Below, piece by piece: positions 641-33,090 of a stretch of 64,000 bases of DNA; position 1 is the first letter of the stretch, and every line of letters begins with the position of its first letter. A program made the translations under genes and the position numbers. The stretch is from positions 806,001 to 870,000 of the forward strand of contig CM007990.1 of assembly GCA_002189035.1 (NCBI GenBank), read 5' to 3'. This DNA is from Utricularia gibba. Taxonomy: Eukaryota > Streptophyta > Magnoliopsida > Lamiales > Lentibulariaceae. The notes under the pieces are model-generated. The model was not told the DNA's origin. It did no database searches and saw only the letters and a list, made by a program, of their open reading frames with translations.

Positions 641-650
641 CTTCTATTTC

Positions 651-9957: not shown

Positions 9958-10038
9958 TCATTGAAGCTGCTGTCGCTGCCACTTACCGGCTACCAACAGA
10001 GATCGAGCAGCTAGCTTCCCCAGCAATCCCCTCACCAT
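9958..10038 (-). pseudogene. Succinyl-CoA ligase beta-subunit 5' fragment
   Basis: A 26-codon frame opens MVRGLLGKLAARSLLVAG and continues KWQRQQLQ then stop. This resembles the mitochondrial presequence of plant succinyl-CoA ligase (ADP-forming) beta subunits, where an NIHEYQ segment follows. That segment and all catalytic exons are missing, so only the targeting end remains. It lies in the same orientation just upstream of the VAP27 fragment, suggesting that pieces of unrelated genes were brought together, for example by a gene-capturing transposon. The match is short and made from memory. Confidence 0.5.
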
Positions 10039-10189
10039 GTCTGAGTTATTTCTTCGCGATCCTACTGCGCAAGATTAGACTGTACGAATACGGTAAATTG
10101 AACCATCATCCACCGTAAATCTCACACAGAAAACAAATCGACGACCTAGAGCCGCCGGAGGAAGAAAATCACCTTCGGACTGAACTGAT

Positions 10190-12156: not shown

Positions 12157-14109
12157 CTCCAGGTGCGGCGGCGTTGCGATTATGTGGGGTGCTCTGGCGA
12201 GGATGCGGCGGAGGAGATCCCATCTCCTTCCTCCATATACGAGTTTCCTTCCTCCCCAGGAACCTAGTAACCCCCTGTGCCGTCAGCACCTCCCGATTCC
12301 ATAGCCCAGCCGTTGTTGCTGCTGGTACGTTCCTGCTGCGGCAAAAACAAAGGATTCTGAATCTCCCCAGAACTCACCCACAAGGGACCTGATTCCTCCC
12401 CACGAGAAAACGAGGAAGGATGGATGCTGGCGGCAGAGTGCGGCACGACATCATCGGAAAGTTTGAGTCCAGAAAAAGCCCGATCAATACCCTGATCGGA
12501 AGCCTGAAGATTGCAAAACGAGGCTGCATCATCTCCCGGCGAAAAGTTTGCGAACAGCAGCAACCACTGATCGGAGAGGAAAAGACGGGGATGAAATGAA
12601 TGAAAGGGGTGTGGGGATAAAACAGGGAGAGGAACGAGAAAAGGCAACCAACGGAAAAGGAGGCGGCAGCCCTGTACAAGTGGACGCCGTTTGGAAGATC
12701 ATGGCGTTGAACATGCATGGCTGCGTAGGCCATGAGAGACATGAGGAGCTTGATGAAGACAGCAGGAGCGTAGCTCGGTAGAGGACTGCGGCGGTCTGCA
12801 CAACCGTTTGGAGAAGACAGACAGAAGTTGACGAACACATTCAAATTCTTGGCCCAATATATACTCCCGGTCATAAGCTGTCTGTCTTCTCCAAACCGTC
12901 GTGCAGACCGCACAGTCCTCCACCGAGCTACGCTTCTGCTGCCTTCATCAAGCTCCTCATGTCTCCCATGGCCTATGCACTATGCAGCCATTCATGTTCA
13001 CGCCATGATTTTCCCCAACAGAAGAAACGGCGTCCACTTGTACAGGCTGCCGCCTCCTTTTCCGTTGGTTGCCTTTTCTCGTTCCTCTCCCTGTCTATCC
13101 CCACACCCGTTTCATTCATTTCATCCCCGTCCTTTCACTCTCCGATCAGTGATTGCTGTTCGAAAACTTTTTCGGGGGAGATGATGCGGCTTCGTTTTGC
13201 AATCTTCAGGCTTCCGATCAGAGTATTGAACGGGCTTTTTCTGGACTCAAACTTTCCGATGATTCCTGCCGTACTCCGCCACCAGCGTCCATGCTTCCTC
13301 GTTTTCTCGTGGGAGGAATCAGGTACTTTGTGGGTGAGTTGTGGGGAGATTCAGAATCCTTTGTTATTGTTGCTACAAGAATACGAGCCTCTTGACGACT
13401 CAGAGTGTTCTTACTTTTGCCCTTGATTATAACAGGCTGAAGCAAATCATTCACTAAATTTAGACAATCCGATGTTGGAGTAGCAACATCCATAACGTAT
13501 GAAAGATATCTCAGTTTCGTGTATGCATCGGAAACTCCATAGTAAGATGCAAACTCAGCCGTCAACCACGCAGTGGCAAGTTTCTGTGCTGAAACTGTTG
13601 GATTTTCATTGCAGCCTCCAACACGCACTTGTGGCTGTTTTCATCTGGAGTTGTTGAATAACTGATCGATAATTGGATTCTTTTCTTCCAACTTGCTCAT
13701 GCTCCGGTTCATGGTATAGGAAACATGTACGTAGCTTCTCACCCAATTCATCAACAATATCAGCCACCTGAACCTCGATCAAAATGTCATCTCCGAGTCC
13801 ATCCGGCAGGAGTATTCGGATTCCGCTTTCTCCTGCTGCATTCTCACAGGATCCTCTTCTTGAGAGCTTTTTAGTCGTAATAGACAGGAATATGATTCTG
13901 GTACCACTTCGTAAGATGGTGAGCTGCCCCTCCAAGCATTAACAACCAGCAGCAACAACGGCTGGGCTATGGAATCGGGAGGTGCTGACGGCACAGGGAG
14001 GTTGGGTTACTGGGTTCCTGGGGAGGAAACTCGTATTCGGAGGAAGGAGATGGGATCTCCTCCGCCGCATCCTCGCCAGAGCACCCCACATAACCGCACC
14101 GCCGCCGCA
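12157..14109. repeat. Nested long inverted repeat with fam-B sequence
   Basis: Inner arms are 12346-12824 and 12888-13366, about 479 bases each, separated by a 63-base loop. Outer arms of about 165 bases lie near 12162-12325 and 13944-14109. The right side is interrupted at about 13380-13940 by a foreign segment. Both inner arms carry degraded fam-B sequence (for example APAVFIKLLMSLMAYA on the minus strand) plus a Ser-rich frame containing NLQASDQ. A transcript through the inner arms would fold into a near-500-bp hairpin. Neither arm keeps a convincing intact gene. Confidence 0.8.
13400..13900 (-). pseudogene. Fragment of a plant C2-like protein gene (At4g24610/At5g65440-type)
   Basis: On the minus strand, about 13840-13700 encodes PDGLGDDILIEVQ, then QVADI, EKLRTCFLYHEPEHE and QVGR. 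About 13580-13400 encodes EFASYYGVSDAYTKLRYLSY and MDVATPT, then LVNDLLQPVIIKGKSKNTLS. These blocks occur in this order in a large plant-specific protein family I recall as At4g24610/At5g65440-like; the assignment is from memory. Segments between them are missing and frames change, so this is a broken copy. It sits inside the right arm of the inverted repeat and has no counterpart in the left arm, so it was inserted or captured after the repeat formed, or lost from the left side. Confidence 0.6.
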
Positions 14110-14330
14110 TGGATTCCTGCGTAGGGAATGACAGATGTGAGGAACACGATGAAGACAGCAGGAGCGGAGCTCGACGGAGGACTGCGGCCTGCTCCACAGC
14201 GCTTTGGAGAAGAGAACTCATGAACGGGACGACACATTGAGTAAGGGATTTGAACATCTTCATCGTGGAGGGGGACTTGCAGAAGGAACAGGAGATGATG
14301 GCAATGCCCACCCTCACCGGAAATGTTCTC
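14110..14330 (-). pseudogene. fam-B copy, minus strand
   Basis: Reading down from about 14317, the frame gives GIAIISCSFCKSPSTMK, then LTQCVVPFMSSLLQSA. The rest of the fam-B motif (APAVFIVFL, PYAGIHAAAVRL) is in a different frame, so the copy is broken. It pairs as an inverted repeat with the plus-strand copy at 14660-14870 across the AT-rich block between them. The original function of fam-B is unknown to me. It looks like a short hydrophobic protein. Confidence 0.55.
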
Positions 14331-14331
14331 C

Positions 14332-14680
14332 TGATTAAAATGCTACAAGTCTTCTAGAGTTTATATAATAAAAAAATAACAATATTATTACGTAAATACA
14401 TACTATATATTACGTTAATATAATAATAGTAATAAATTATTATAATATATATAAGTAATTAAAATATTTTATAAATTATAATTAAATATTTTAAAAAATG
14501 ATTTAATTATAAATTTATAAAATATTTGTTTTATTTTTTAAAGGTATTTATTTATATATTATCTTTTAATAATTTATTACAATTTATTATATTAAAGTAA
14601 TTTTTTTTTTTTTTTGTATTCACATAATATTATTGTTATTTTTTTGTTATAAAAAGACTAGAAGACTTGTAGCATTTGAA
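14332..14680. repeat. AT-rich inverted-repeat (MITE-like) block
   Basis: The ends are inverted copies: TGATTAAAATGCTACAAGTC on the left and the complement of GACTTGTAGCATTTGAATCA on the right. The interior is almost pure A/T and the pairing extends inward through TTGTTATTTTTTT-type sequence. The right half contains GTTATAAAAAG and resembles the 5' modules at 24.3, 28.1 and 31.6 kb. It therefore looks like two promoter modules joined head to head rather than, or as well as, a classical MITE. Confidence 0.6.
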
Positions 14681-14719
14681 TCACTTCTCCAGGGAAAACC
14701 CCATCGTCTCCTATTCCTT

Positions 14720-15080
14720 CTGCAAGCCCCCTTTCATGATGGAGATATGCCGTCCCTGGTCATGAGTTCTCTTCTCCAAGCCGTTGTGCAGACCGCCACA
14801 GTCCTCCATGGAGCTCCCGCTCCTGCTATCTTCATCATGTCCCTCGCGTCTCTCGTGGCCTACGCAACCAGCCATGCGGCGGCGATGAGATTACGTCGGG
14901 TGCTTGGTTGCAAAGGCATGAGGGACACGAGGAACTTGATGGAGACTGCAGGAGCGCAGCTCGGTGGAGGACTTTGGTGGGCTGTAGAACGGCTTGGAGA
15001 AGAGAAGTTACGATATATTGAGTGATGAATTTGAATATATTCATCAGTTTCTCCGTCATGGAGGCGGCGGCTTGCAGATG
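14720..15080. repeat. fam-B hairpin (inverted copies)
   Basis: The plus-strand copy (MSSLLQAVVQTATVLHGAPA at about 14763) faces a minus-strand copy. Core arms are about 14758-14869 and 14906-15012, with a 36-base loop; weaker pairing extends to about 14720 and 15080. The left arm has lost roughly 55 bases relative to the right. A TATA-like TTATAAAA sits upstream at 14647-14654, so a plus-strand transcript would form a hairpin. Confidence 0.7.
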
Positions 15081-15354
15081 GAAACGGAACCTTACGAGGG
15101 GTTCGAAGATTCAAAACTCACTTTCAGGTCTAATTTGTCATATCGTGTTGGATTTCCCAAGGATCCCAGAAACCTGATTCTGAAAACCTCTATTACTCAT
15201 ATGTGGGTGGTTTGTGCCCATGTTTTATTAATACGTTTATATATTCAATGTGTTTCATTAATTTCCAGAGATCGAGATCTTGTTTTAGATGGATATCTTG
15301 AATCTTGGTAATCAAGAAATTATCTTGATCGTTTTTCATTTTGGTGTTGATTTT

Positions 15355-15761
15355 CATCAGTGTATTTATAGCTACTTTCTTCGCGATGTGGATGAGTGTC
15401 CTGAAGGGGATATGGCCGCAGTTGGACGACCTTCTGATAAATGAAACGCATGGTTTCCCAGTTTCAGAGGACGAAGATCGGCGGGGAGAGCACAACCGGT
15501 ACGTAAAAGGAGCACCAGTAAGTTGCGAAGACAGAGTAGGAAAAGGGTAGGCGCGACTGCTGAGAAGGAAGCAGGATCAACTCGTCCCATGGAGCATCTA
15601 CTCCCCATCATGGGACGAGCAGCATCGCTGCTTCCTTCTCGGCAATGGCTTCAGCCCATTTTCTCCTCTGTCTTCGCACCTCCCCGGTACACCTTCTACG
15701 TACTCCTCGCCGATCTTCGTCCTCTCGAACTGGGAAACCACGCATGTTGTTTATCAGAAGG
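15355..15761. repeat. fam-A hairpin with sense leader fragment
   Basis: A short sense piece at 15355-15431 (FFAMWM, GIWPQLDDL) is followed by an antisense copy of the fam-A 3' half (15432-15591), a 17-base loop, and a sense copy (15609-15761, SPIFVLSNWETTHVVYQKV). Arms are about 155 bases and diverged. The order sense leader, antisense arm, loop, sense arm recurs at 25.7, 28.4 and 31.9 kb. Confidence 0.75.
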
Positions 15762-16153
15762 TCGCCAAAAGGGAATAGGAGTAACCTGTGGATCCTGTTC
15801 AAGTTACAACAATGAGAATATTGAAATTTAAATATATAATAAACATGATTTATATTAATAAATATTACTTTATTCTAATATTTAAATATATATATTTCAT
15901 TTTTCGATGTGAGATTGTTTATTATAATATTTGACCTTATGTTGAATTGATATTTGATCCAATTAAAATTTATTTTTTTGTGATTAAAGGTAATGTTGTT
16001 CTAATACGACACCGTGGGAAGAGTTGATGCTCCTCCTTGCTTCCTTCTCATCAATCACCATAACCCTTTTCCTCTTTCTCTTGACACGTCTGCGGTACTC
16101 CTTCATATTGATAAGAAAGAACAAATAATCCAATATTGGAATTTAAAAATATA

Positions 16154-16359
16154 ATAATAAATATATAATAAATTATAAATCATTATTAATCAATTAAATA
16201 CAATATTTTCTAATATGATTTATATTTTTGTGTATTTGAATTTCACATGTTTGTTCATAATAAATATATAATAAATTATAAATCATTAGTAATCAATTAA
16301 ATACAATATTTTCTAATATGATTTATATTTTTGTGCATTTGAATTTCACATGTTTGTTC
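16154..16359. repeat. Two-copy 103-bp tandem repeat
   Basis: Copies 16154-16256 and 16257-16359 are nearly identical, each ending CACATGTTTGTTC. They are AT-rich and non-coding. A diverged relative lies near 23930-24010. Confidence 0.85.
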
Positions 16360-16489
16360 GATTCATCAGATTTTAAATTTCAACACATGCCCTTGGTCAC
16401 CCAACTACAACCATATCCTGTTTAGGACATCGAGATACAGAGTGCTCTTAATTACAAATCCTTATAATATACGTTTGATGTGCGAATGA

Positions 16490-16800
16490 ATAACTTTACA
16501 ACATAAAATTTTTATAAAAAAATAAATTTAAGTATAATTTTACACGCATAATATAAAATTATAATAAAAAGATAAAAAAAGATTGGTAATACATATTTTT
16601 CTAAATACAAATTGGATAATTTTTTAATTTCCCCATTAAAAATTTAAGTCAAATCAAACAACACCTATAAATATCATATCCAACTAAAAAAACAGAAATT
16701 AATATTTTAGGTTTTAAAATAAAAATTTAACGTTTTTTAATTATATATAAAACTTTATTGTCCTATAAAATGAGGAATTACAGTAAAAGTTAAAAATTAA
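16490..16800. repeat. Dispersed repeat shared with 33.1-33.45 kb
   Basis: This stretch and 33110-33450 share a series of blocks in the same order: TTCAAGTATAATTTTA-like, AATCAAACAACACCTATAAA, ATATCATATCCAACT, and CTATAAAATG.GGAATTA. They are direct copies, probably moved together with fam-A units. Confidence 0.65.
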
Positions 16801-17001
16801 ATCACATATTTTTTCCCTATTATCATAAATGCCTCACACGGTGAACGGGTCTGGTACCAGACCTTCCCGACAGGAGAGAGCACGTGCCTGTGGATTTAAG
16901 ATACCGAGACCATTCCGACACGGCGAGGACCCAGGCAGGCCTGCCTGCATGCAGACACTCGACGTCATCGTTGACTTTCTATAAATAGCACTGCCGGCGG
17001 G

Positions 17002-17463
17002 TCACGCCGGCGCGGCGTCCGCCGTTGCGTCGTCATCTTGCCAACTCCTAGCCTTGTGGTAAATGCGCCGGACGTTTTCCCAATTCACGACGGCGAAGGT
17101 GGGCGGCGAGAGCACCAGGGGGACGTAGAAGGAGTAGTGGGGAGAGACGAAGAGGGAGAAGAAGGAAAGGGTTGCGACGATTGCCGAAAATGAAGCTGGA
17201 AGAAACATCAGCTCGTCCAACGGCGGCCATATCCCGTTCAGGGCATCGATTGTCCAAAACGCGAAGAAATTGGCGATGAAGAGTCTCATCATGGGGACCT
17301 GCAGAGGGTCTATCCCCCGTATTTGGTATGTCACCAGAAGGATACCCAGCGGGATCGGAATCAACCTCCCCGTGACGATCTTGAACACCTCCCGCAGCGC
17401 CTTTATCATCTTCGGACCCCTCGGAGGGTTCCCTTTCTCGGCCTCCGGCGGCGGAGCTCCCAT
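17002..17463 (-). CDS. fam-A intact member 1: small multi-pass membrane-like protein
   Basis: An intact single-exon frame of 153 aa starts with ATG at 17463 and ends at 17002. I do not recognise the family. The N-terminus is Pro/Gly-rich (MGAPPPEAEKGNPPRGPK), followed by KALREVFK. Hydrophobic segments then lie near residues 34-46 (RLIPIPLGILLVTY), 59-79 (MRLFIANFFAFWTIDALNG), 85-107 (LMFLPASFSAIVATLSFFS) and 113-128. The tail is acidic and basic (YHKARSWQDDDATADAAPA). This suggests three to four membrane passes, but orientation and location are unknown. A TATA box lies 78 bases upstream at the same spacing as in member 2. It is unpaired, unlike most broken copies nearby. Coding GC is far above the flanks. 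Confidence 0.75.
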   Translation of the reverse strand: MGAPPPEAEKGNPPRGPKMIKALREVFKIVTGRLIPIPLGILLVTYQIRGIDPLQVPMMRLFIANFFAFWTIDALNGIWPPLDELMFLPASFSAIVATLSFFSLFVSPHYSFYVPLVLSPPTFAVVNWENVRRIYHKARSWQDDDATADAAPA

Positions 17464-17540
17464 GGCCGGTTCTGCGAAGGAAAGGAGGATGGAAAATTGA
17501 AGGAACCTCTCTTGAGCTTGAGAAGTAACGAGGAGTGAGC

Positions 17541-17551
17541 TTATATATATA
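17541..17551 (-). promoter_or_regulatory. TATA box of fam-A member 1
   Basis: Minus-strand sequence CTATATATATAAGCTC lies about 78 bases before the ATG, leaving a leader of about 45 bases if transcription starts 30 bases downstream. Confidence 0.6.
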
Positions 17552-20500
17552 GAAGTTGATGAGCAATTCAGATTTCATTGCACGAGGTTGGAAATCTGGA
17601 ATTACACCAACTGTAGAAACCAAAAGTTACCACCCTCAGCATCCACATATAGGCCTAAAGAAGGGCATTAACCGCACCCAGAAAAGGAGTCGACTTGAAC
17701 ACTGCAGTAAATTTTGTTGGCTTTAAATTCCAGCTGGTTGCACCACAGAGCCACTTGCCGTCCTTTATATAGTGAATTAAATTAAATTAAATTAAACCCT
17801 AAACCCTAAATTCGTAACCACTAAATCTCATTAACAAGTAAACCCTAAACCCTAAAAAAAATTTAGCGTCCAAAGCTGTTTAAAGTAAACTTTCATTGTG
17901 TGTTTGAATCATGGAAAATGATAATTGTTTACTTTGCTGGTATGAATGGTTTGACTGAGAGATAACTCTGACTCACATTTAGGATGCATGAATGGGGTGT
18001 GTTGAAGGTCGAGAAGATGACCACGGGATTCCGGTTCCTCAGAGCTGATTCATTGCACAGAATCCAAGTAGATTGTGGGAGAAGGGGTAGATGGAAAACT
18101 TCAATGAGAAGAGAAAAATGTCACTTATTTTGAATTCCAGATGGTAAGCTCAGCGTGGTTAATCACCTAGTAAAAAGAAAAAACTACTGCGAATTCGGAA
18201 CTATAAGTGGGTAATTAAACTAGTGAAGGGGAGGAATGTGTCACAACTCTGATCCCCGTATCTCACCCCCAGCTTCATGATGTCTTGTGTTCTTTCTCTG
18301 CATTGCGGCGCTCCTTTATTTTAATGTGGTTTTGGATACTGTATGGGCACATTTGCGGCTGCCCCTTTAAGTAGGTTTCTTGTTTGAGGAACATGAACCA
18401 AAACCGCTCGTTGTTTTTGAGTTTTTGGTCATGAAATGGATGAACTTGAAGCAGCACATGTAACGCAGAGGGGATTGATTCCTTCTGGTGATTGTATATT
18501 AAATCAGGCTTGTGTAAATTGATTTGGTTTATGTCGAATAAACACAAGAAGAGCAAGATCCTCCATTCTTGGATTCATCACTGTGATTAATCCCCATCCA
18601 TTTCGAATGAAAAACAAAACATGGAGAGAATCCCAGCAGTCTCTTTATTACATACAAAAGGTACAGCAGAAGCAAGGCCAAGAGGGCACTGCAGTGGGCC
18701 TCCCGTGCAGGTCCTCCTCCAACTTGCCTTCTCCATCTCCAATGGAGTTCTTCTCTCGCAAACCCTGAAACAGAAACTGGAGCATGCATAAACTTCTCCC
18801 ATCACGAGGGCATTCCTTTCATTGCATCGATCACCCAATTCGCCATTGATATGCCCCGAGAAGCATCCACGCAGAAAGATGATGGAACTGCATGGAACAA
18901 CACACACATGTGATTCCTATAATGAAAACACACTAATCACGATTCTCTTTCAAAGAGCGAATGCGTAAATGCATTGGGGCAGGCTGTCTGTGTTAGGTCC
19001 TCGCAGTGTCGTGGATAGCTGCGGTCGGGGGCAGTACAGCAGCGGGACACCACGTCTCCCGATGCCAACTCCGAGTCCCATCGTCTTGTTACTCAAAAGC
19101 AGCCCCTAAAACGAAGCCTCAACGTTCCCTTTTTCTCCCAGTCCCAGTTTCCAAAATCCCGATCACCACACTCTCGATTGCATTCCGCAGATTTTTCATG
19201 TTTCGGTCATTGCAGAATTTCAAATCGATCAACGGTGAATGAAATCAAACGAACACATAAAAACCCACAGCATTTCTCTTACATCCTCACGTTTGTCCGT
19301 AAAAAAAAACGGTAATACCTAACGTTTCATTAAGAAAATCCATTCCGAAAAAAGTTTTATAAATTACGTGTGCATCGTAATAAACAAAAATGGTTTTCAA
19401 TACACGATTGTTTTTTTGTACGCATATTCGAATTATTACGAATTTCACTTTTTGAGTCACTAAGATATTTCATGCTATAAAATGATTAGAATAAGGATTT
19501 GATGTTCTAATATCATGTTTGTCCCCGAATTCATTAATAATATAATTAAATATATTATAATCATGATTAAATATATAAGTCATCTTTTTGAATAAAAATA
19601 ATAAATAATACAAAATTATAAAAATAAAAAGATACATATTAACACATGAATGTTATATCAAATTTTAAAAATAAAAAAATTAAAGGAATTCTTTGCTTTG
19701 ATAATTTTATAAAGTGACTATATTTAATTTTTGAAAATTCTATTGTTTAATAGTTCTTTAGTAAAATTTGAAATTAAGATTTTGTGAAAATTATTAAATT
19801 TCTTAAATATCTATTTTAGTGATTAAATTAGAGAGTAATTAAAAAAAATCAGATTACTCACTTTTTATTTATTCTAAAAATACATGTACATCATAATATT
19901 AAATAATTCAACCTTACAACATAATTTTATATTAGCTATACAAACAGTTTTATAATAATAATAATAATGATTGATTGCTCAATCAGTACGGCTTAAGAAG
20001 CCAGGCCTCGTTGATTTCAATGCACGGATTAGGTGATGTACGGCAGCCCAATAAATTGATTAAATTAATTAAATAATTAATATTTACTAGTGGATTTTGG
20101 GCTTACGTGGGAAAATAAACAAAAAATTCCCCATTATATTTTATTAAAAAGGCACCAAATAAAATATTTAAACAGCTTCGGAATCAATGACTGTCTGCTC
20201 CGATTTAGAATATTTAAATAGCTTCCGAAATTTTATGACACCTCTGTCCCGTTGTAATAAAACAACCGGGCCCACTGTCGGAACCATTGGGAGTGAAAAG
20301 GGGCCCAGGAGGTAAATGGCAAGATTTTATTATTATTATTCAAATTATAATGATAATAATAGTATTAATATCAAGATTATTTAAGGAGAAAAATAAGTTC
20401 GTTCGTTCTTCTTAAGGTTTCATGTGTTTGACGGGTTTGCGGCGCCATTTTTTTTCTTTTTCTGGCTGCAGAAAGAGCATTTGCCGATTTGCGGCGGTCT

Positions 20501-22800: not shown

Positions 22801-23031
22801 ATTAACAAAAGCTTCATTTTCTCAGATGCTTTTCTGTTTCAGCTCTCGATTTCATGGCAAGAACAGTCATAAATGCATGTGGTATAGCAGTCCATGGAAC
22901 CCTTTCTTTTTGTCCAGAACAGTAACAAACACCACACATCATACTCTACGTACTGAGATTCAGGAACTAAAGCTAACAGTCCAGCAGCGATTCTACTCTT
23001 ACTCCTAGCACTAGACGGCTCGTCTCTCCGG

Positions 23032-23478
23032 TCACACTGGAGGCGACGGCGGCTCGGAATCCACAGCTCCCTCTTCCCTTTTGGCGACCTTGTGATAAAG
23101 CACTCGCATGGTTTCCCAGTTCGAGAGGACGAAGATCGGCGGAGAGAGCACGAGGGGTATGTAGGAGGAGTACCGGGGAGGTGCAAACAGAGAAAGGAAG
23201 GAAAGGGTTGCAGCGATGGCGGAGAAGGAAGCAGGGAGGAGCATCAGCTCGTCCCATGACGGGGAGTAGACGCCGCTCAGGGCGTCGATTATCCAGTAGG
23301 CGAAGAACATGGCAAGGAAGAGCCGCATCATCGGAACCTGAACAGGATCCACCCCTTTTACTTGATACGTTACCAGAAGGATCCCCAATGGGATCGGAAT
23401 CAGACGCCCCGTGATTTCCTTGAACACCGCCCGCAACGCCTTCATCGTCGACGGCCTGGATTTCGCCGTCCGCCGCAT
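23032..23478 (-). CDS. fam-A intact member 2: small multi-pass membrane-like protein
   Basis: An intact frame of 148 aa starts at the ATG at 23478 (MRRTAKSRPSTMKALRAVFK). The frame stays open to 23556, but no ATG lies further up and the TATA box is there, so the shorter start is chosen. The order matches member 1: RLIPIPLGILLVTYQVKGVD, PVQVPMMRLFLAMFFAYW, DELMLLPASFSAIAATLSFL, YIPLVLSPPIFVLSNWETM and a charged Pro-rich tail. Three to four hydrophobic segments suggest a membrane protein of unknown role. Many broken copies at 25.7-33 kb resemble this member more than member 1. Confidence 0.75.
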   Translation of the reverse strand: MRRTAKSRPSTMKALRAVFKEITGRLIPIPLGILLVTYQVKGVDPVQVPMMRLFLAMFFAYWIIDALSGVYSPSWDELMLLPASFSAIAATLSFLSLFAPPRYSSYIPLVLSPPIFVLSNWETMRVLYHKVAKREEGAVDSEPPSPPV

Positions 23479-23553
23479 CAACCAGGGCCTGAAATCGAGG
23501 ATCAGAAGGGAAGAAAGGATGTACAGTGTGGCCTTTCTTCGCCGTGTTGGGTT

Positions 23554-23563
23554 CAATATATAG
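23554..23563 (-). promoter_or_regulatory. TATA box of fam-A member 2
   Basis: Minus-strand CCTATATATTG lies about 76-85 bases before the ATG at 23478, the same spacing as in member 1. Confidence 0.55.
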
Positions 23564-23579
23564 GTAGATAGGAGGAAGA

Positions 23580-24280
23580 AGAAACTCTAGACAGAGGGAT
23601 CTGGTGGGGGATGGGAATCATCCCCCATACCTCTACATTTATCTCACCTTCACTCCAGCCTTTTCTCCTTGCTTCAGCTCAAGTTGAAATAAACTAAACT
23701 ACATTCAATGCTGCAAACGAGAGAAGGAATGACTCGCAGCAAAGGAAGCATTGAAAATGAAGACATGAGGAAGTACCCGGGGATGGTACTTCGAATGCAA
23801 AATACTTATCACATTTGTTGATCAATTGTGGGGAAGACGAGATCTGCTCCTTTAATTCAACACACTCAAATTATTAGAACAAACAATCACGACGTTATTT
23901 TAAAATAAAATAATCAATTATATGAAAAATTATATATCATATTAATCAATTAAATTTAATATTTTTAATGTGATATATGTATTTTTATATATTTAGATTT
24001 TAGGTATGTTTATCTATTCATCAAATTCTTCATTTGAATAAGAAGAAAGTCAAAAGATCAGGATGGCAAATATCATAATAAAATCAAGAAACGTCGACCT
24101 ATCCGCAATTAAATGAAACCTGCACAAGCGAAAGGTCATGGCCAATCCACGTCGGCCATCTATTATTTACCAATTTTTACGTAAATTTTTTTTTCAAACA
24201 CTCTTTAAAAATACATATAATATGGACGACAAAATATGTTAGATACAAAATTAATTTAAAAATTTTATTAAAAAGCTGTA
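23580..24280. other. AT-rich spacer upstream of fam-A unit 1
   Basis: Mostly non-coding and AT-rich beyond 23880. No gene seen. The distal part (from about 24190) resembles the sequence before unit 3 near 31480. Confidence 0.45.
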
Positions 24281-24284
24281 AAAT

Positions 24285-24450
24285 AATTAATTAAATCAAT
24301 TTATGAAACATTTTTTTATTATTTAAACGTATTATTAACGTATTTTATTTTAATAATTTATTACTGTTATTATATTAATGTAATATGTATTATGTATATA
24401 CGTAATGCTATTGTTATTTTTTTGTTATAAAAACACTAGGGTTTGGACAG
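24285..24450 (+). promoter_or_regulatory. Shared AT-rich 5' module with TATA (unit 1)
   Basis: Nearly the same AT-rich sequence, ending TTGTTATAAAAACACTAGGG here, precedes the units at 28.2 and 31.75 kb and, more diverged, the fam-B copy at 14.65 kb. The TTATAAAA at 24425-24432 sits about 30 bases before a conserved leader (CCTCATCCACAACACT). It behaves like a promoter that was copied with each unit. Confidence 0.6.
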
Positions 24451-25150
24451 TGTATCCTCATCCACAACACTCCTCCAGGACAAACCTTCCCGGTGACCGT
24501 GGAGGCCGTAATCGCCTCCTATTCCTTCTGCGGGAGGTGTTCAAAACACTCTGCAGGTCTCCAGGATGAATTTCTTTGCGTATTGGATGATCGATGTCCT
24601 GAACGGAATATGGCCGCAGTTCAACGAGCTTCTGATAAATGACAAGAATGGTTTCCCAGTTCGCGGGGGTGAAGATCGGGGGAGAGCACGGGTTGGAAAT
24701 TTGGTGTTGGAGAAGAGCTGTGTGTGGAGAGTGGTTTAGAAAGAGTACCGTCGATGTGCGAAAATAGGGAGGAAGAAAAGGCTTCCCGTGATTCGAGGGA
24801 GGAACATCAACTCCTCCCACCGTCCAAGGCGCTGCGGGAGGTGTTCATCACGGAACCTGTTTCCCGTCTCCACGATGAAACTATTCATCGCTGAATTCTT
24901 CGCGATTTGGATGATCGATGCCCTGAACGGGATAGGGCCGCCGTTTGACGGCCTTCTGGTAAGCGATATGAATGGTTTACCAGATCAAGAGGAGGAAGAT
25001 CGGTGGGGAGAGCAGGAGCGGTGCGTAGAAGGAGTACCGCTGAGGTGCGAAGAGAGAGAGGAATGAAAGGCTTCCGGTGATTCCTGAGAAGGAAGCAGGG
25101 AGGAGCCGATGGAAAGTAGATCCACCCTTTCTCCCCTACCGATCCTCGAT
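24451..25150 (+). pseudogene. Two rearranged fam-A partial copies (unit 1, first part)
   Basis: Each copy has a short sense piece (about 24565-24635, FFAYWMIDVLNGIWPQFNEL; and about 24830-24950, including MIDALNGIGPPFDGL). Each is followed by the antisense of the fam-A C-terminal half (24640-24830 and 24955-25120). Neither can encode the protein. The second has a 92-codon open frame across the sense/antisense joint, which is chimeric and not a real domain. Confidence 0.6.
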
Positions 25151-25218
25151 TTCGTACCCTTTTACATCGGCTCCTAACTGCTTCCCAACAAGACTTGTAG
25201 TATTTTAATTATGAGTGC

Positions 25219-25562
25219 TCAGAAACTGATGAATATATTCAAATTCATTACTCAATATGTCATGAGTTCCCTTCTCCAAACCGTTGTGCAGCCTACGACA
25301 GTTCTCTATCGAGCTCCCGCTCCGGCTGTCTTCATCATGTCCCTCAGTCTCTCCTGACCTACGCCAGCATCATGCGGCGGCGCGCGCGATTCTGTTGGGT
25401 GCATGGTTGCGTAGGCCATGAGAGACGAGGAATATGATGAAGACCGCAGGAGCATAGCTCGGTGGAGACTATGGCGGGCTGCACAACGCTTTGGAGAAGA
25501 GAACTCATGACTGGGACAACAAATTGAGTGATGAATTGGAATGTGCTTATCAGTTTCTCCGT
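25219..25562. repeat. fam-B hairpin 2
   Basis: Arms 25219-25365 and 25409-25562 carry opposed fam-B copies. The plus-strand arm has ATGAGTTCCCTTCTCCAAAC; the minus-strand arm reads MTEKLISTFQFITQFVVPVM then SSLLQSVVQ. The loop is about 43 bases. The right arm runs straight into the N-terminal region of a fam-A member-1-like copy at 25575 (RRKRNLPRGSKMMKALREVFK region), so the two families are physically fused here. Confidence 0.7.
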
Positions 25563-25574
25563 CATGGAGGGGGG

Positions 25575-26490
25575 GCTTGCAGAAGGAAACGGAACCTTCC
25601 GAGGGGTTCGAAGATGATGAAGGCGCTGCGGGAGGTGTTCAAAACCCTCTTTCACGTCTCCATGATGAAACTATTCATCTCTAATTTCTTCGCGTTTTGG
25701 ATGATCGATGTCCTGAACGGGATATGACCGCCGTTGAACGACCTGCTGATAAACGACATGCAAGGTTTGCCAGTTCAAGAGGACGAAGATCATGTGCGAA
25801 GAGAGAGAGGAATGAAAGGCTTCCGGTGATTCCTGAAAAGGAAGCAAGGAGGAGCCGATGGAAAGTAGACGCTGCTCAGGGCGTCTAATATCCAGTAAGC
25901 GAGGAAATGCCAAGGAAGAGCTCATTGGGACTTCAAGAGGTCCACTGCTTTTACGTCGTAGTTGCCATATGGATCTTCAGCGGGATCGGAATCAAACTCC
26001 CGGTGACTGCTTTGGAAACCTCCCCAACGCCTTCATCTTCAAGGGGATCCACCCCTTCTGATGAGGGCGTTGAGGGGAGGTTTTCAAAGCAGTCACCAGG
26101 CGTCTGATTCCGATCACACTGGGGATCCTTATGGCAACTTATGACGTAAAAGCACTGGATAAGTCCCAATGATAGGCTTTTCCTTGTCCTTTCCTCGCTT
26201 ACTCGATAATAGACGCCCGGAAGGCGTCTACTTTCCATCGGATCTTCCATGCTTCCTCCTCCGCAATCGCAGCAACCCTCTCCTTCCTTCCTCTCTTTGC
26301 AGCTCCCCGGAACTCCTCTTACGTACCCGTCGTGTTCTCCCCGCCGATCTTCGTCGTCTCGAGATGGGAAACCATTCGTCATTTATCAGAAGGACAAGGC
26401 TAGGAGTAGGGAAGATGATGACGTGGTGGTGGACGGCGCGCCGCCACCCTCTCCGGTGTAACCCGCCGGCGATACTATTTTTCAATTAGG
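25575..26490. repeat. fam-A hairpin (unit 1, last part)
   Basis: A member-1-like sense start (25608-25740, MKALREVFKTLFHVS, then FFAFWMIDVLNGI) is followed by the antisense arm 25743-26036, a loop of about 23 bases, and the sense arm 26060-26393. The left arm has lost about 60 bases. The sense arm continues to the conserved unit end (CTCTCCGGTGTAACCCGCC at about 26450) and ACTATTTTTCAATTAG. Multiple frameshifts prevent any full-length protein. Confidence 0.75.
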
Positions 26491-26499
26491 TCGAAATAT

Positions 26500-26980
26500 C
26501 TAACAACACTATCTCCTTAAATATCTAACTTTGTTCTGTTCCTATTTGCCGAACATGCAATATCAAAAGGATGTTTTAAATTCAAAAACTATCAAGCAAT
26601 ACTATAACAGAATAGAATTTAACCTTAGCTTAGGACCTGTTATATGTTATAAATTTATTGGAGTTATTCTATTTAATTTTTTAATATTTTAATCTTTAGC
26701 CATTTTGTAATAAAATCAGAAATTTTGAATTTATTGAATCTATTTTTTCTAAATAAGAGATTCACTTTTTGATAATAGATTAATTGAATCTTTAGACATT
26801 TTTCTAAATAAGAGATTAATTAGAAAAAATATAATATTTATTTTTTATATATTGTAAAAATATATTTATATCATAAAAATAAATTATATAATAATTTAAT
26901 ATATTAAACTTTACAATATATATTTAAGTTTATTAAATTTTATAATATAATTTTATGTTATATTATAAAACTTTATGAGT
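26500..26980. other. AT-rich spacer
   Basis: Non-coding, very AT-rich, no feature seen. Confidence 0.5.
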
Positions 26981-26983
26981 GTC

Positions 26984-27101
26984 GAATACCATTTCAGCAA
27001 TAATATCTTTACTGTTGATCCAAGGCTGGCTACTGCACTCTGGAGGAGAAACTTATCTTTGGCATGTCCTGAGGCGCCTCTTTTTGTGCTTGCATTGTAA
27101 C
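26984..27101 (-). pseudogene. VAP27-like MSP-domain fragment
   Basis: Minus-strand 27101 downward encodes VTMQAQKEAPQDM, then in another frame AKDKFLLQSAVASLGSTVK, then a frame giving an IIAEM-like end. This is the second half of the MSP domain of a plant VAP27 protein. At least two small deletions break it: after QDM, and at the codon after TVK. It complements the C-terminal fragment at 9371-9709 without overlapping it, so both may derive from one parental gene. Confidence 0.7.
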
Positions 27102-27174
27102 TTAAGTACATAGAAAAAGAATCAGAAAACCCTAAACTGCTAACAGTCAAACACGAGTACACTCGAATACCCGC

Positions 27175-27590
27175 GTCATCGGACAACAATATTTATGAAA
27201 CTCCATGCTTTCGATACACATGCCATGAGTGGAAGAATTACATATGTAAGAAATTTTACTATGTGAACTGTAAAGAGATTCAGGTGTTATCAGACAACAA
27301 TCTTTACAGAATTTTATGCTTCGGATAGACATGCCATGAATAAAAGAATTACAGATGTAAGAAATTTTACTATGTGAACTGTAAAGAGATTCAGGTGTTA
27401 TCAGACAACAATCTTTACAGAATTTTATGCTTCGGATAGACATGCCATGAATAAAAGAATTACAGATGTAAGAAATTTTACTATAGATTTACATGTCATC
27501 ATACAATAATCTTTATGAAACTCCGTGCTTTCCATAAACATACCATGAGTGGAAGAATTACAGATATAAGGAAGTTCACTATGTAAACAA
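27175..27590. repeat. Tandem repeat, about 111 bp, four copies
   Basis: Copies start near 27175, 27285, 27396 and 27495. The two central copies are almost identical (period 111); the outer ones are diverged and the third is shorter. Each contains CATGCCATGA and AGAAATTTTACTAT. The minus strand stays open across the first three copies (a repeated CNSFIHGMSIRSIKFCKDCC-like peptide), but I see no sign it is coding. Confidence 0.85.
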
Positions 27591-27599
27591 AAAACATAA

Positions 27600-28030
27600 T
27601 GTTGCTGATACAAAAATCGCAAAAACAAAAATCTTGTATGTGTATTCTCTTCTATTACAACAAAAAGGATAATAAGGCAAGTTGTAGACAGTAGCTTTTA
27701 TAGACACAAAGCATAACAAACTTCATACGAAAATAGAATCTAATAAGATTATGTTTCAGATCTCAATAGTATAATTAAACCTGCGAAATGCTGATCGAGT
27801 TGCTCACTTCCAACGGCTGTATAGCTTTTATTACTCGGTATTATTTCAATATTCCAAGATTATCTTTTAGCTTAACATGAACTTGTTCAAGCACGTAATC
27901 CCCGCTTGATACGTGTAGCAGATATTCTTGAAACGTATCTCAAACACCCTAATTTGGTCAGCTTTGATTGGGAGAACATTCCAAGTCTTAGCAAGCTTTT
28001 TAAAAAAAAAAAAAATCTAAATGAATGATT
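27600..28030. other. Unassigned spacer
   Basis: No gene recognised. Parts near 27790-27850 loosely resemble 31090-31140, which suggests a dispersed repeat. Confidence 0.35.
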
Positions 28031-28039
28031 TTTTTTTTA

Positions 28040-28195
28040 AAAATGAATTATAAATTTATGAAATATTTTTTATTATTTAAATGTATTATTTATGTATTAT
28101 ATTTTCATAATTTATTACTGTAATTATATTAATGTAATATATATATTATGCATTTACGTAATGTTATTGTTATTTTTTTGTTATAAAAACTGTAG
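28040..28195 (+). promoter_or_regulatory. Shared AT-rich 5' module with TATA (unit 2)
   Basis: Second copy of the module described at 24285, with TTATAAAA at 28181-28188 followed by the leader GTGCATCCTCATCCACAACA. Confidence 0.6.
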
Positions 28196-29190
28196 GGCTT
28201 CGACAGTGCATCCTCATCCACAACACTCCTCCAGGACAAACCTTCCCGGTGACCGTGGATGCCGTAATCGCCTCCTATTCCTTCTGCGGGAGGTGTTCAA
28301 AACACTCTGCAGGTCTCCAGGATGAATTTCTTCGCGTTTTGGATGATCGATGTCCTGCACGGGATATGCCTGCAGGCTGCGGTTGGACGACCTTCTGATA
28401 AATGACACGAATGTTTTCCCAGTCGCGGGGATGAAGATTGGGGGAAAGAGCTGGAGCGGTACGAAGAAGACGTCCCGCTGAGGTGCGAAGAGAGATCGGA
28501 AGGTAAGGGCCCCAGTTATTAGTGAGCAGGAAGCAGGGAGGAGCATCCACTCCTACAACCATGGAAAATAGACGCTGCTCAAAGCGTCTATTACCCAGAA
28601 AAGAAAGAACATGATGAGAAAAACCCTCATTCTGGGGACTTCAAAGGGGATCCAACAGTTTTACGTCATATTTGACTAGAAGGATCCCCAAAGGGATCAG
28701 AATCAAACGGTCGACGAGTGCTCTTGAAACCTACCGCAAGTCCCTCATCGAACGTTTGATTTTGATCCCTTTGGGGATCCTTCTAGTCAAATATGACGTA
28801 AAAGGGGGGATCCCCTTGAAGTCCCTATGGTGAGGCTCCTCCTCATCATGTTCCTTGTTTTCTGGGTAATGGACGCCTTGAGCAGCGTCTATTTTCCATC
28901 GCGGGGAGGAATGGATGCTTCTCCCTGCTTCCTGGTCACTAATCACTGGATCCCTTTCCTTCCGATCTCCCTTGTACCGCTCCTGCTCTCTCCCCCCATC
29001 TTCATCCTCACGAACTCGGAAACCATTCGTGTCATTTATCAGAAGGACAGGGCTAAAAGTAGGGAAGATGATGACGCGGTATTGGACGACACGCCGCCGC
29101 CCTCTCCGGTGTAACCCGCCGGCGGTACTATTTTTCAATTAGCTTTAATTCAAACTTTTTCACAAACAACAAATAATTTGCATATTCATA
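28196..29190. repeat. fam-A hairpin unit 2
   Basis: Order: leader 28196-28320; sense piece 28321-28390 (FFAFWMIDVLHGI); antisense arm 28391-28709; loop of about 42 bases; sense arm 28752-29046; C-terminal tail (DDDAVLDDTPPPSPV) with stop near 29112; and a unit end shared with unit 3. The sense arm reads RLILIPLGILLVKYDVKG, then a stop, then VRLLLIMFLVFWVMDALSSV. Arms are about 300 bases and look closely matched. A plus-strand transcript from the module at 28040 would form a long hairpin. Confidence 0.8.
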
Positions 29191-29199
29191 CATTAATGC

Positions 29200-29658
29200 A
29201 AGATGAATTTCTTTGCGTTTTGGATGATCGATGTCCTGAACGGGAAATGCCTGCAGGCTGCAGTTGGACGACCTTCTGATAAGGACACGAATGGTTTCCC
29301 AGTCGCGGGGATGAAGATTGGGGAAAGAGCAGGAGCGGTACGTAGAAGGCATCCCGCTGAGGTGCGAAGAGTGCGATAAAGGAAAGGGTTCCAGTGATTA
29401 CTGAGAAGGAAGCAGGGAGACGCATCAACTCCTCCCACGATGAAAAGTAGACGCTGCTCAGGGCGTCTATTATCCAGAACCCAAAAAACATGATGAGGAA
29501 GAGCCTCATCAATGGAACTTGAACAGGATCCACACCTTTTTCTTGATATGTTACGAGAAGGATCCCAGTGGGATCGGAATCAAACGCTCCATGATTGCCT
29601 TGAACACCTCCCGCAGCTCCCTCATAGTCAGCGGGTAGGGTTTCGCACTGCTCGCCAT
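29200..29658 (-). pseudogene. fam-A near-complete pseudogene
   Basis: Starts MASSAKPYPLTMRELREVFK at 29658 and covers the whole fam-A length on the minus strand. One base is missing in the PLGIL region (GGATCCCAGTGGG against GGATCCCCAATGGG in the intact member 2), and another near the NWETI region, where it shares the lesion with unit 2's left arm. At its end it meets a short member-1-like sense piece (29203-29270) immediately after the unit 2 end. It looks like the left half of a hairpin unit whose right arm is absent. Confidence 0.7.
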
Positions 29659-29659
29659 C

Positions 29660-31560
29660 CAGGCAGAATCAGGGTATGAAATACGAGTTCAGGAGAGGAG
29701 AAATGATATGCGGAATCAGGGTAGAAATACAAGTTCAGGAGAGGAGAAATGACGCGCGTGGTAACGTTTTTTTGGGTTCGCCTTCGCGTATTACATAGGC
29801 GGAGGGTCAGTTATGGTATAACTGTGGCGTTCTTGATTCAGTTCAGGAAATGAATCAAAACCTTGTGGGCGAAGTTAAGCCATCTTGTTTCAATTTTGGA
29901 TATGATGAGGACACTTAGTCAAATCTCTCGCAACGTTTTCATATCGACTAGTTGGATTTCATATGCTGCGCAATAATATGTAGCGAAAAAGGTTAGGTGA
30001 ATGCTGGGGTGGTCATTTCTGAGAAAATGAAAGCAGAAATAGCAAACCGGAACGACTTCACCCCAGTCGAAGACCCCACCGTGCCACAGAAGTCATGGGG
30101 TTTGAATGCGGTAGTTTTTCGGGCTCGAACGAAGTGAGAGGTAGGGAGAGCTCGAAAAAAGCCGAGGAACGAAGTGGCTCGACGATAGGGAGAGAACGCG
30201 ACGAAGTCGAAAAAATGCATACTAGGTATTTTTTAAAAACACTCGTTCATTGGGTGTTGCGTGGCATGCCTGTAGGGTTTTTTTTAAAAAAATACCCATT
30301 GCATTTTAAGTGTGTTAAAAATATAATCACGCTATATGCATAGTGTGTGAGAGAGAAATACACTAGTTAGTGATGAGTCGGCTTCTAAAAGATTGTTAAT
30401 ATGACACATTCTGAAAAGCGGCCGGATTACGGCATAACAGACGGCCGATATCTGAAAAGCGAGATCGTATAGCAGTTGTAGAAATCAACCGATATTTGCA
30501 AACGTCAGGATTCGACCAGATTGAGCTCTTCTATAAATAGAAGAAATCATTACGCAGAAAGGGTTGAATTCTAAGAACTATTCAACTTGTATCATCTTCT
30601 TCGCCATCTCCATCTAGTGGAAATCTTCTTCGGCGAGGTCCGATAGCTCCGTGGTTTTTCTGTACTCCGGCGATTTCCAGATAAAAATCTCCACTTACTC
30701 TTGTTTCAACCGATCAAACCGAACCAATCACGAAAAACACTTAAGTGCGATATTCCCGATCGCACCTATCATACTAAATCGGCTTCTTTCAGGATACCAA
30801 TTTTACTCATAACATTTAGATTTAAAAAACACCTCATGCCTAGAGCATCGAGTTCATGACGTACTCATATTCACACCTATTTACCGTTATTCAGGGGGGA
30901 GGCCCCCCACGTGTGCATAGGTTTTTGAGTTTCTCAATCACTTTTAAAAATCAATGTGATCTAACCAATTAAAACTTGTACATACGAGATACTTAATTCA
31001 TTCTCAGATCCAAGGATTAAAGGAATATTATTCCATATAAATTAATTTAAATTGATTTCAACTAGCAATATAGAATTACACATCTATTCTCCAATTCAAC
31101 GGTATTTGCCTTTTATTGCTCAGCATTAATTTAAATTGTACCATTAAACCTGAGGTGCAACTCAACATTGAAGTATAAATATGAATTGAAACCAAACGTG
31201 TAAAAGTAGTTTTTGTGTCATGAATATTACAATATCTCTCTCAACCATTGCTCCCCAAGTCCTTCAGTGCATAGCTTCAAGTTAGGAAGCTCAAAACTAG
31301 GCTAGGCTTCAAATTCAGATTCTATAAAACGTCTCCTCCTTTCAAGTCGCCAACAAGAACAAGAAATGGAAAAGATATTAAAAACTTTTTCGGTCGCCGG
31401 TGGCGGATCCCCGTCGAACACTTTGTGAGAACGACGAAAGGGAGAGAAGAGACCCGGTTTTTTTTTTTTTTCATCTTCAATTATTTAACAATTTTTAACG
31501 CAACGACGCAATATGTTTTCATTTTTTAAAACACAAACTAAATTAAAATTCTATTAAAAA
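29660..31560. other. Unassigned region with repeat remnants
   Basis: 29660-30350 includes GC-richer sequence rich in CGAAGT/CGACGA-like motifs with no gene match. 30387-30778 is listed separately as a possible element. 30900-31560 is AT-rich with no gene. Retrotransposon debris is likely, but I cannot name families. Confidence 0.35.
30387..30778. mobile_element. Possible LTR-like insertion (392 bp)
   Basis: The segment is flanked by identical nine-base copies TCGGCTTCT (30378-30386 and 30779-30787). It contains a strong TATA (CTATAAATAG at 30531) and promoter-like sequence as in LTRs. The ends lack a clear TG...CA, so the flanking repeat may be coincidence or part of the element. Confidence 0.3.
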
Positions 31561-31569
31561 CTCTAAACT

Positions 31570-31745
31570 AATTAATTAAATCAATTTATAAAAAGATTTA
31601 ATTATAAATTTATGAAATATTTTTTTCATTATTTTAACGTATTATTAACATATTTTATTTTAATAATTTATTACTGTTATTATATTAATGTAATATATAT
31701 TATGTATTTACGTAATGTTATTGTTTTTTTTGTTATAAAAGCACT
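31570..31745 (+). promoter_or_regulatory. Shared AT-rich 5' module with TATA (unit 3)
   Basis: Third copy of the module, with TTATAAAA at 31733-31740 followed by GCACTAGGGTTTGGACC. It is nearly identical to the unit 1 copy over its last 100 bases. Confidence 0.6.
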
Positions 31746-33090
31746 AGGGTTTGGACCGTGCATCCTCATCCACAACACTGCTCCAGGACAAACCTTCCCG
31801 GTGACCGTGGACGCCGCCATCGTCTCCTATTCCTTCTGCAGGTCTCCAGGATGAATTTCTTTGCGTTTTGGGTGATCGATGCCCTGAACCGGATATGGCC
31901 GCAGTTGGACGACCTTCCGATAAACGACAGGAATGGTTTCCCAGTTCTTGAGGATGAAGACGGTGGAAGAGAGGAGGAGCGGTAGGTAGATGGCGTACCG
32001 CTGAGGTGCGAAGAGAGCGATAAAGGAAAGGGTTCCAGTGATTGATGAAAAGGAAGGAGGGAGGAGCATCCACTCCACCCACGATGGAAAATAGACGCTG
32101 CTCAAGGCGTCCATTACCCAGAAAACAAAGAACATGATGAGGAAGAGCTTCATCATGGGGACTTCAAAGGGGATCCACCCCTTTTTACATCGCAGTTTAC
32201 GAGAAGGATCCCCAATGGGATCAGGATGAAACGATCCATGAGCGTTTTAGAAACCTCCCGCAACGCCCGCATAGTCAATGGGCAGGGAACCGCACTGCAC
32301 GCCATCTAGGATGAATCGGGGCTTGAAATTGAGGATCAGAAAAGGGATCCACCCAATTCTTTCCTCGCACAGTACGAAACCCAACGCGTCGACGGTGAAG
32401 GCGTTAGGGGAGGTTTCTAAAGCGGTCACAGATCGTTTGATCCCGCTCCCATTGGGGATCCTTCTGGTAAACTGCGATGCGAAAAGGGGTGGATCCCCTT
32501 GAAGTCCTGATAAAGGAAGATCCAATGTGCCCACACTCAAGGCAGTAGAATATGACCGTTAAAGAATAATTGTTCATGTATTTAAATAGAATTGCAGTGT
32601 ACAAAAACTCATGGAATGAATGAGAACTCACTTCTTCCTCCTCTGTATTTGCTGCTTCCTGTTTCCACATCCGTGTAGATTGGTTTCTTATCAAGTCCCC
32701 ATGATGAGGCTCTTCCTCATCATGTTCTTTGTTTTCTGGGTAATGGACGCCTTGAGCAGTGTCTACTTTCCGTCGTGGGAGAAGTTGATGCTCCTCCCTG
32801 CTTCATTTTCATTAATCACTGGAAGCTTTTGCTTGATTGCTTTCTTCGCACCTCAGCGGTACGCCTTCTACGTACGGCTCCTGCTCTCTTCCCCCATCTT
32901 CATCCTCACGAACTGTGAAACCATTCGTGTCATTTATCAGAAGGACAAGGCTAGGAGTAGGGAAGAGGATGACACGGTATTGGAAGCCACGCGCCGCCCT
33001 CTCCCGCCGGCGGTACTATTTTTCAATTAGCTTTAATTCAAACTTTTTCACAAACAACAAATAATTTGTATATTCATACCTAATAGCTCA
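31746..33090. repeat. fam-A hairpin unit 3
   Basis: Leader and sense piece at 31746-31912 (FFAFWVIDALNRIWPQLDDL), antisense arm 31913-32267, 132-base loop, then sense arm 32400-32507 plus 32694-32944, split by a 186-base insertion. Without the insertion the arms are about 355 and 354 bases. The antisense arm holds most of a fam-A protein (MMKLFLIMFFVFWVMDALSS...). The loop keeps sequence like the 5' leader of intact member 2. The sense arm ends in the conserved unit tail and a 3' flank shared with unit 2. Confidence 0.8.
32508..32693. mobile_element. 186-bp insertion in the unit 3 sense arm
   Basis: The insertion begins TGATAA and ends TTATCA, giving a short inverted terminus, and is flanked by AGTCC on both sides (32503-32507 and 32694-32698). 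Removing it restores GAAGTCCCCATGATGAGG, exactly the complement of the uninterrupted left arm. This is direct evidence of a later insertion. The element family is not identified; five-base duplications and six-base termini are not diagnostic. Confidence 0.65.

Follow-up and report, generated by a model that had tools for sequence, protein, structure and literature searches.

The question raised by this locus is why one small gene family of Utricularia gibba should be present as a field of broken, inverted copies, and whether those copies could serve to silence their intact relatives. The stretch analysed, referred to here as the window, was C2:806001-870000 (64 kb), and window positions count from its first letter. 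Genome-wide matches were searched in 516 contigs (100,091,633 bases), with C2, C321, C451 and similar labels denoting contigs. A preliminary description of the window had suggested that the field may be a self-amplified silencing cluster of long hairpin-RNA (hpRNA) loci aimed at its own intact paralogues, and had mentioned young microRNA (MIRNA) genes as a product of the same route. Our comparison of sequences indicated that the field likely works like an hpRNA cluster, and the anatomy fitted the proposed hpRNA loci more strongly than had been recognized, because TATA-bearing cassettes appear oriented into the hairpins, sense arms keep gene 3' ends, arms share exact 21-mers with intact genes, and units of the same design occur elsewhere in the genome.

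Of the 118 self-matches in the window (E value ≤1e-8, direct and inverted together), 117 lay within 12.16-33.30 kb. Controls for inverted repeats were the remaining window (1-11500 and 33501-64000), which held no inverted match of at least 80 nucleotides (nt) at E ≤1e-6, and the retrieved family gene loci, four of which (L010, L012, L013, L032) gave inverted matches at 69-71%. None were found when inverted matches were looked for in ten further copies of subfamily D (fam-D) loci. All seven of the inverted repeats previously listed proved real by arm alignment and self-matches. They derive from two subfamilies, fam-A and fam-B, and their arms were 82-93% identical, with gaps excluded from the calculation:

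12321-13388, minus strand: H12, fam-B hairpin; arms 12321-12824 and 12878-13388, 93% over 492 columns, loop 53 nt
14767-15006, plus strand: H14.9, fam-B hairpin; arms 14767-14870 and 14905-15006, 82%, loop 34 nt
15422-15768, plus strand: H15, fam-A hairpin; arms 15422-15591 and 15609-15768, 83%, loop 17 nt
25221-25558, plus strand: H25, fam-B hairpin; arms 25221-25370 and 25403-25558, 83%, loop 32 nt
25795-26301, plus strand: H26, fam-A hairpin; arms 25795-26037 and 26060-26301, 86%, loop 22 nt
28391-29046, plus strand: H28, fam-A hairpin; arms 28391-28718 and 28744-29046, 89%, loop 25 nt
31913-32944, plus strand: H31, fam-A hairpin; outer arms 31913-32164 and 32693-32944, 89%

Homology of H26 with other copies reached 25739-26393. 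H28 was preceded by a leader (28318-28382) and followed by a 3' tail to about 29191, and the tail of H31 reached about 33079. The 528 nt between the outer arms of H31 contained a second pair of arms (32167-32297 and 32370-32500, 81%, 72 nt between them). The longest uninterrupted helices measured 50 base pairs (bp) in H12, 51 bp in H28 and 73 bp in H31, and the inverted repeats were long enough to form extended double-stranded RNA, as a long hpRNA locus would. Fold z-scores of the seven hairpins on both strands ranged from -10.4 to -65.5, compared with -2.1 to +0.5 for four controls; H12 gave -62.5 and -65.5. When the palindrome at 14080-14910 and the whole P24 unit (described below) were included, the nine stretches spanned -10 to -81 over both strands. 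These values are rough, as only 10 shuffles were made for each; the span 28196-29190, which the preliminary description had named for folding, gave -24.2 with 20 shuffles. As a separate observation, the right arm of H31 was broken by an insert of ca. 185 nt at about 32508-32690, on both sides of which a few bases (AAGTCC) were apparently repeated, as judged by eye.

Two structures had been overlooked in the preliminary description. One was a palindrome at 14080-14904 (72% with gaps), centred on two divergent cassette copies. The other was an outer stem of the leftward fam-B unit that contains H12:

13945-14109, minus strand: 5' arm of the outer stem in the leftward fam-B unit; partner of 12164-12326
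12164-12326, minus strand: outer 3' arm of the same unit; inverted match to 13945-14109, 91%

The whole leftward unit (14345-12150) folded as a nested hairpin, its outer helices measuring 61 and 53 bp, at -1442 kcal/mol over 2196 nt, an energy computed without a shuffle control.

MIRNA genes can arise by inverted duplication of target genes, a route that Allen reportedly described in 2004. Young MIRNA genes of this origin would share with the field a foldback built from the target gene's own sequence, as in the Arabidopsis siRNA02 inverted duplication outlined in part of PMC350667. However, the stems here are about 100-500 bp long, the units have been amplified in arrays, and 11500-33500 contained no Rfam match at gathering score, and with it no match to a known microRNA family. 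An origin as young MIRNA genes was therefore left without support, and we regard it as very improbable.

Five copies of an AT-rich, TATA-bearing cassette some 160 bases long were present in the field, and in their alignment all appeared oriented to read into hairpins (the pieces that follow P24 are listed with them):

14360-14520, minus strand: P14 minus; minus-strand TATATAAA at 14367-14360; reads leftward to H12
14495-14654, plus strand: P14 plus; TATAAAA at 14648-14654; reads right to H14.9 and H15, overlapping the middle of palindrome 14080-14904
24280-24432, plus strand: P24; TATAAAA at 24426-24432; reads to H25 and H26
24562-25120, plus strand: leaders and antisense pieces of the P24 unit; sense leaders 24562-24630 and 24886-24950, with fam-A antisense pieces
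28034-28188, plus strand: P28; TATAAAA at 28182-28188; reads to H28
31585-31740, plus strand: P31; TATAAAA at 31734-31740; reads to H31

P14 minus and P14 plus formed the divergent pair inside the palindrome. By coordinates, the distance from the TATA box to the first paired arm was ca. 120 nt for P14 plus, 180 nt for P31 and 210 nt for P28; it was ca. 260 nt for P14 minus, measured to its outer stem, and ca. 795 nt for P24, where unpaired sense and antisense pieces precede the first paired arm.

Units of the same design were found at other loci. A second array, at C321:827.2-839.7 kb (L055, L056 and L061-L063), held four hairpin units (C1-C4) from subfamily C (fam-C), each in the order cassette, antisense arm, loop, sense arm, and in all four TGTATAAAAGG stood directly before the hairpin. 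Fold z-scores were -20 to -45 (8 shuffles), the helices measured 17, 20, 21 and 91 bp, and the arms differed by 4-24%. The array's only full-length fam-C frame was the antisense arm of the fourth unit. Between C321 and the window there were nine short matches, none of which linked the arrays through their hairpins or cassettes. High conservation of TGTATAAAAGG in the eight-copy C321-type cassette (mean identity 0.977, compared with 0.784 overall) was set aside, because the copies had been cut out around a TATAAAA match and the motif was favoured by construction.

When the genome was searched for the C321 cassette, two places were found on C255, one at C2:875 kb, two on C451, a copy on C177 and five short matches. 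Outside C321 there were thus five main places, and at four of them the downstream sequence was read. At C451:2485.5-2486.2 kb, within L088 (C451:2485101-2486300), the cassette led to a new fam-D hairpin whose arms were 90% identical over 291 nt (z -33). At C451:2480.8-2481.1 kb, a cassette read into an adjoining fam-A inverted repeat of 94 nt (95%, z -30), with the TATA box merely ca. 13 nt from the arm. The total thus came to 13 hairpins (7 + 4 + 2), at three loci and from four subfamilies. Contigs C16 and C177 look like duplicates of part of C451, since their genome matches were identical, and were not counted apart. As a side observation, L086 (C255:2006501-2009000), between two cassette copies, contained a long frame that stays open over 295 codons, and the fam-D copy of L028 (C451:2492 kb), which has an in-frame stop, was flanked by an inverted pair of 118 nt (86%).

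Long-read assemblies are known to produce erroneous head-to-head joints, and the inverted joints might on that account have been created by assembly. Such an origin is highly unlikely because the arms of the window hairpins differ by 7-18%; those on C321 and those of the C451 fam-D hairpin (10%) differ as well, and contig C177 (3050-3770) holds both arms of the fam-D hairpin in a 96% copy.

The genes that the hairpins could act upon include two in the window itself:

17002-17463, minus strand: A17, intact fam-A gene; 153 amino acids; ratio of nonsynonymous to synonymous substitution (dN/dS) to relatives 0.24-0.43
23032-23478, minus strand: A23, intact fam-A gene; 148 amino acids; dN/dS 0.23-0.32

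The preliminary description had held that only these two copies keep open frames. No other copy in the window is both full-length and open, but some fragments are open too, among them 32620-33030 (136 amino acids) and the unpaired copy at 29.3-29.6 kb. The sense arms retained the gene 3' end: 16983-17301, comprising the stop codon of A17 and ca. 20 nt beyond it, matched 33021-32692. For the hairpins of the field, 21-mers were compared with those of 13 family genes. H15 shared 13 exact 21-mers with A23 and H31 shared five; H12 shared five and nine with two fam-B genes; the P24 unit shared three with A17 and one with A23; and H26 shared one with the gene at C451:2480. H28 contained 30 21-mers with no more than two mismatches to A23, and a 20-kb control stretch of the window contained none within two mismatches of any of the 13 genes. 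On C451, the fam-D hairpin shared 4-24 exact 21-mers with each of five fam-D genes, one of which (C451:2492 kb) has an in-frame stop, and the fam-A hairpin held 72 exact 21-mers of the neighbouring gene at C451:2537 kb. Target matches of small interfering RNA (siRNA) length were found, then, in H12, H15, H31, the P24 unit, H26 and both C451 hairpins.

Although the preliminary description had treated fam-A and fam-B as two families, a fam-A query matched the intact fam-B gene at C2:986138 (31%, E 1.8e-6), and on this match they are subfamilies of one family of membrane-like proteins of ca. 140 amino acids; A17 and A23 both contain hydrophobic stretches. With A23 as query, the genome yielded 42 matches at E ≤1, a figure that includes the window's own pieces. 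Subfamily C was found on C321, with a 40% relative at C1:3435540 (contig C1), and subfamily D on C451, C177, C16 and at C1:6663168 (also contig C1). The intact genes were constrained, with dN/dS of 0.23-0.43 over seven fam-A and fam-B pairs. For fam-D, three distinct usable comparisons gave 0.44, 0.51 and 0.88, after exclusion of the L026 and L077 rows (wrong open reading frame) and of identical copies. No match near the cut-off was found in Pfam (best E 0.37 in a first search and 0.064 among 13 members), and no relative of A17, the only query used there, in the PDB. A word-based search of limited reach found no relatives in the protein database (57 candidates at E ≤1; 8000 candidates at E ≤0.1). 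In the same database, a GRAS protein of the window retrieved 526 proteins, Lamiales first, and among the best 120 of these the top named relatives were from Paulownia, Sesamum and Handroanthus at 61-62% identity, so plant proteins are present in it. Within the reach of these searches the family looks lineage-restricted.

The distribution of the units bears on whether they could be transposable elements (foldback elements, miniature inverted-repeat transposable elements (MITEs) or gene-capturing elements) carrying family fragments. Their inverted-repeat form, the dispersed repeats in the spacers (26640-27150) and the presence of the C321-type cassette on four contigs would agree with such an origin. 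However, the hairpin and window-cassette DNA was limited to the field in the genome search, except for gene relatives and one weak match: the window cassette was found at its five places in the field and, weakly, on C413, and the fam-B query also matched relatives at C2:878 kb, C2:986 kb and on C304. MITEs and foldback elements would be dispersed, and the ends of the units differ between copies. An origin as transposable elements is therefore improbable.

In a tree of 15 of 16 rows, from which the short copy X24a was omitted beforehand and in which five of the 12 inner branches were weak, all ten included field copies of fam-A grouped with A23 (100/99), apart from A17. The sense leaders matched A17 instead, at 85-93%: 17206-17309 and 17381-17437 matched within 25748-25586, and 17210-17271 matched the leaders 24630-24569 and 31915-31854. 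In alignment, H28 and H31 are descendants of one unit, with a divergence of 10% in the cassette, 12% in the leader and 6% in the 3' tail. To the left of the fam-B unit, the 3' flank of the C2:986 kb gene (L032) carried matches, in unchanged order, to pieces of 12222-9964, and because of this shared order the leftward unit seems to have been built onto a former fam-B gene.

Co-variation between arms was counted as sites grouping within hairpins, by the same arm, or crosswise. H28/H31 gave 13:6:0, the six all lying in the outermost eight columns, a pattern that suggests conversion between arms. The other field pairs gave 20:2:2 (H26/H28), 27:4:2 (H26/H31), 3:0:1 (H15/H26) and 1:5:1 (H14.9/H25), and the C321 units 3:29:1 (C1/C2), 49:1:3 (C1/C4), 24:0:0 (C2/C4), 14:0:1 (C3/C4), 5:1:1 (C2/C3) and 20:0:1 (C1/C3). 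The self-amplification suggested in the preliminary description was borne out in part, in that a finished hairpin appears to have been copied in some pairs (C1/C2, 3 within-hairpin and 29 same-arm sites; H14.9/H25, 1 and 5). Compensatory change was considered as an explanation of the co-variation but not taken as proof of selection: several sites are clustered, the pairs disagree, and gene conversion or inversion after drift fits equally well.

The main rival to hpRNA loci is neutral debris, that is, pseudogenes and local inverted copies made by repair or template switching, spread together with upstream AT-rich sequence and devoid of RNA function. Several observations weigh on its side and against hpRNA loci. 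The arms drift, and their mismatches showed no strand bias (67 G-U and 72 A-C on the plus strand, with no excess of G-U). In units C1 and C2 the arms diverged by 11-13% and the cassettes by 12%, at the same pace. The TATA 11-mer of the window cassette, whose copies, unlike those of the C321-type set, were not each cut around a TATA match, had an identity of 0.891 compared with 0.854 overall, with no excess conservation. Cassette places without hairpins exist: that on C255 led to an antisense fam-C piece (65%, 189 columns), and that at C2:875 kb to a weak 31-nt match alone (E 0.003). No exact 21-mer of the 13 genes was found in the palindrome 14080-14904, H14.9, H25, H28 or X29, and none of the C321 fam-C frame in units C1 and C2. 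Unpaired broken copies lie among the hairpins, at 24.6-25.1 kb and at 29.2-29.7 kb, the latter with fold z-scores (-0.9 and -2.1) similar to those of the controls:

29199-29682, plus strand: X29, a leader and unpaired antisense fam-A copy, without a partner arm of its own

Grouping of arms within hairpins could also arise if a pseudogene drifted first and inverted later. The weak point of neutral debris is recurrence: hairpins with cassettes pointing into them are found at three loci and derive from four subfamilies. Long perfect helices (91 bp on C321; 50, 51 and 73 bp among the window hairpins) and 21-mers matched by subfamily also stand against it. We therefore favour hpRNA loci, and debris, a lesser though serious possibility, is rather unlikely.

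It is probable, from these comparisons, that at least some of the units are transcribed and diced, as long hpRNA silencing loci; that they silence the intact genes to a meaningful degree is a more tentative proposal, for which the chances appear slightly below even. Under the favoured hpRNA reading, genes of a lineage-restricted family of small membrane-like proteins would have been inversely duplicated into hpRNA transcription units, in which, typically, an AT-rich TATA cassette is followed by a short sense leader, then by the antisense arm and, after a short loop, by the sense arm with the gene 3' end. RNA polymerase II would transcribe the units from the cassettes, DCL4/DCL2-type enzymes would dice the stems into 21-22-nt siRNAs, and these would silence intact paralogues in trans. 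We infer this mechanism by analogy with the maize Tpd1 hairpin and the soybean I locus. The imperfect arms need not be a defect, because substitutions that disrupt the inverted repeat are described, in part of PMC9263138, as protecting hpRNA transgenes from self-methylation. In U. gibba, 52.8% of small-RNA reads were 21 nt and 14.4% were 24 nt long, and a truncated DCL3 and two RDR6 copies were described (PMC8333044, in part).

To our knowledge, plant inverted-repeat silencing loci are mostly single and directed against conserved genes. No account of comparable hairpin arrays in Utricularia turned up in the literature consulted, and reports may exist elsewhere. At the soybean I locus, according to sections of PMC3804491 and PMC6710647, a 27-kb cluster of inverted chalcone synthase repeats gives siRNAs against intact family members. 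Like the field, it is a plant cluster of inverted gene copies; unlike the field, it targets a conserved enzyme through demonstrated siRNAs, whereas here the family is an orphan and there are many short hairpins, broken copies and a cassette shared at several loci. The Tpd1 hpRNA of Teosinte Pollen Drive (PMC11390486, in part) resembles the favoured reading as a long plant hpRNA with diced siRNAs and a protein-coding target, although it is a single hairpin with 22-nt siRNAs and a pollen phenotype and the field consists of arrays.

The layout nearest to that of the field is, by comparison, the hp-tHMG cluster of Drosophila simulans, for which the relevant part of PMC10317233 gives 13 hpRNAs in ca. 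27 kb and three paralogues outside the inverted repeats; the related Nmy and Tmy hpRNAs act against Dox-family genes (PMC10292708, in part). These loci and our putative hpRNA units share a tandem arrangement, derivation from a young gene family, solo paralogues between the units and several hairpin loci for related genes. They differ in that the Drosophila loci are animal, their siRNAs and Dcr-2 dependence have been demonstrated, and their family is HMG-box or protamine-like, whereas the Utricularia family is a membrane-like orphan. By this analogy the field could be a plant counterpart of the Dox/hpRNA conflict, in which dedicated hairpin arrays, matched to each subfamily, restrain a duplicating family of small membrane proteins. 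Taken as a whole, with a family perhaps selfish or harmful in some tissue, shared promoter cassettes, hairpins re-formed repeatedly from genes, and a truncated DCL3 together with small RNAs that are mainly 21 nt long, that scenario is speculative and unlikely.

Hairpins at three loci, from four subfamilies, apparently go back to one orphan family and stand behind cassettes that loci have in common. Were these units transcribed, they would show how hpRNA loci arise, amplify and stay matched to their targets, and the hpRNA reading can be checked at once with the existing U. gibba small-RNA libraries (described in part of PMC8333044).

Other repeats also occurred in the field. The stretch 26640-27150 was a repeat dispersed through the genome, where it had at least 40 matches, some of them adjoining fam-D genes, and 27175-27605 consisted of four tandem copies of a 111-nt unit.

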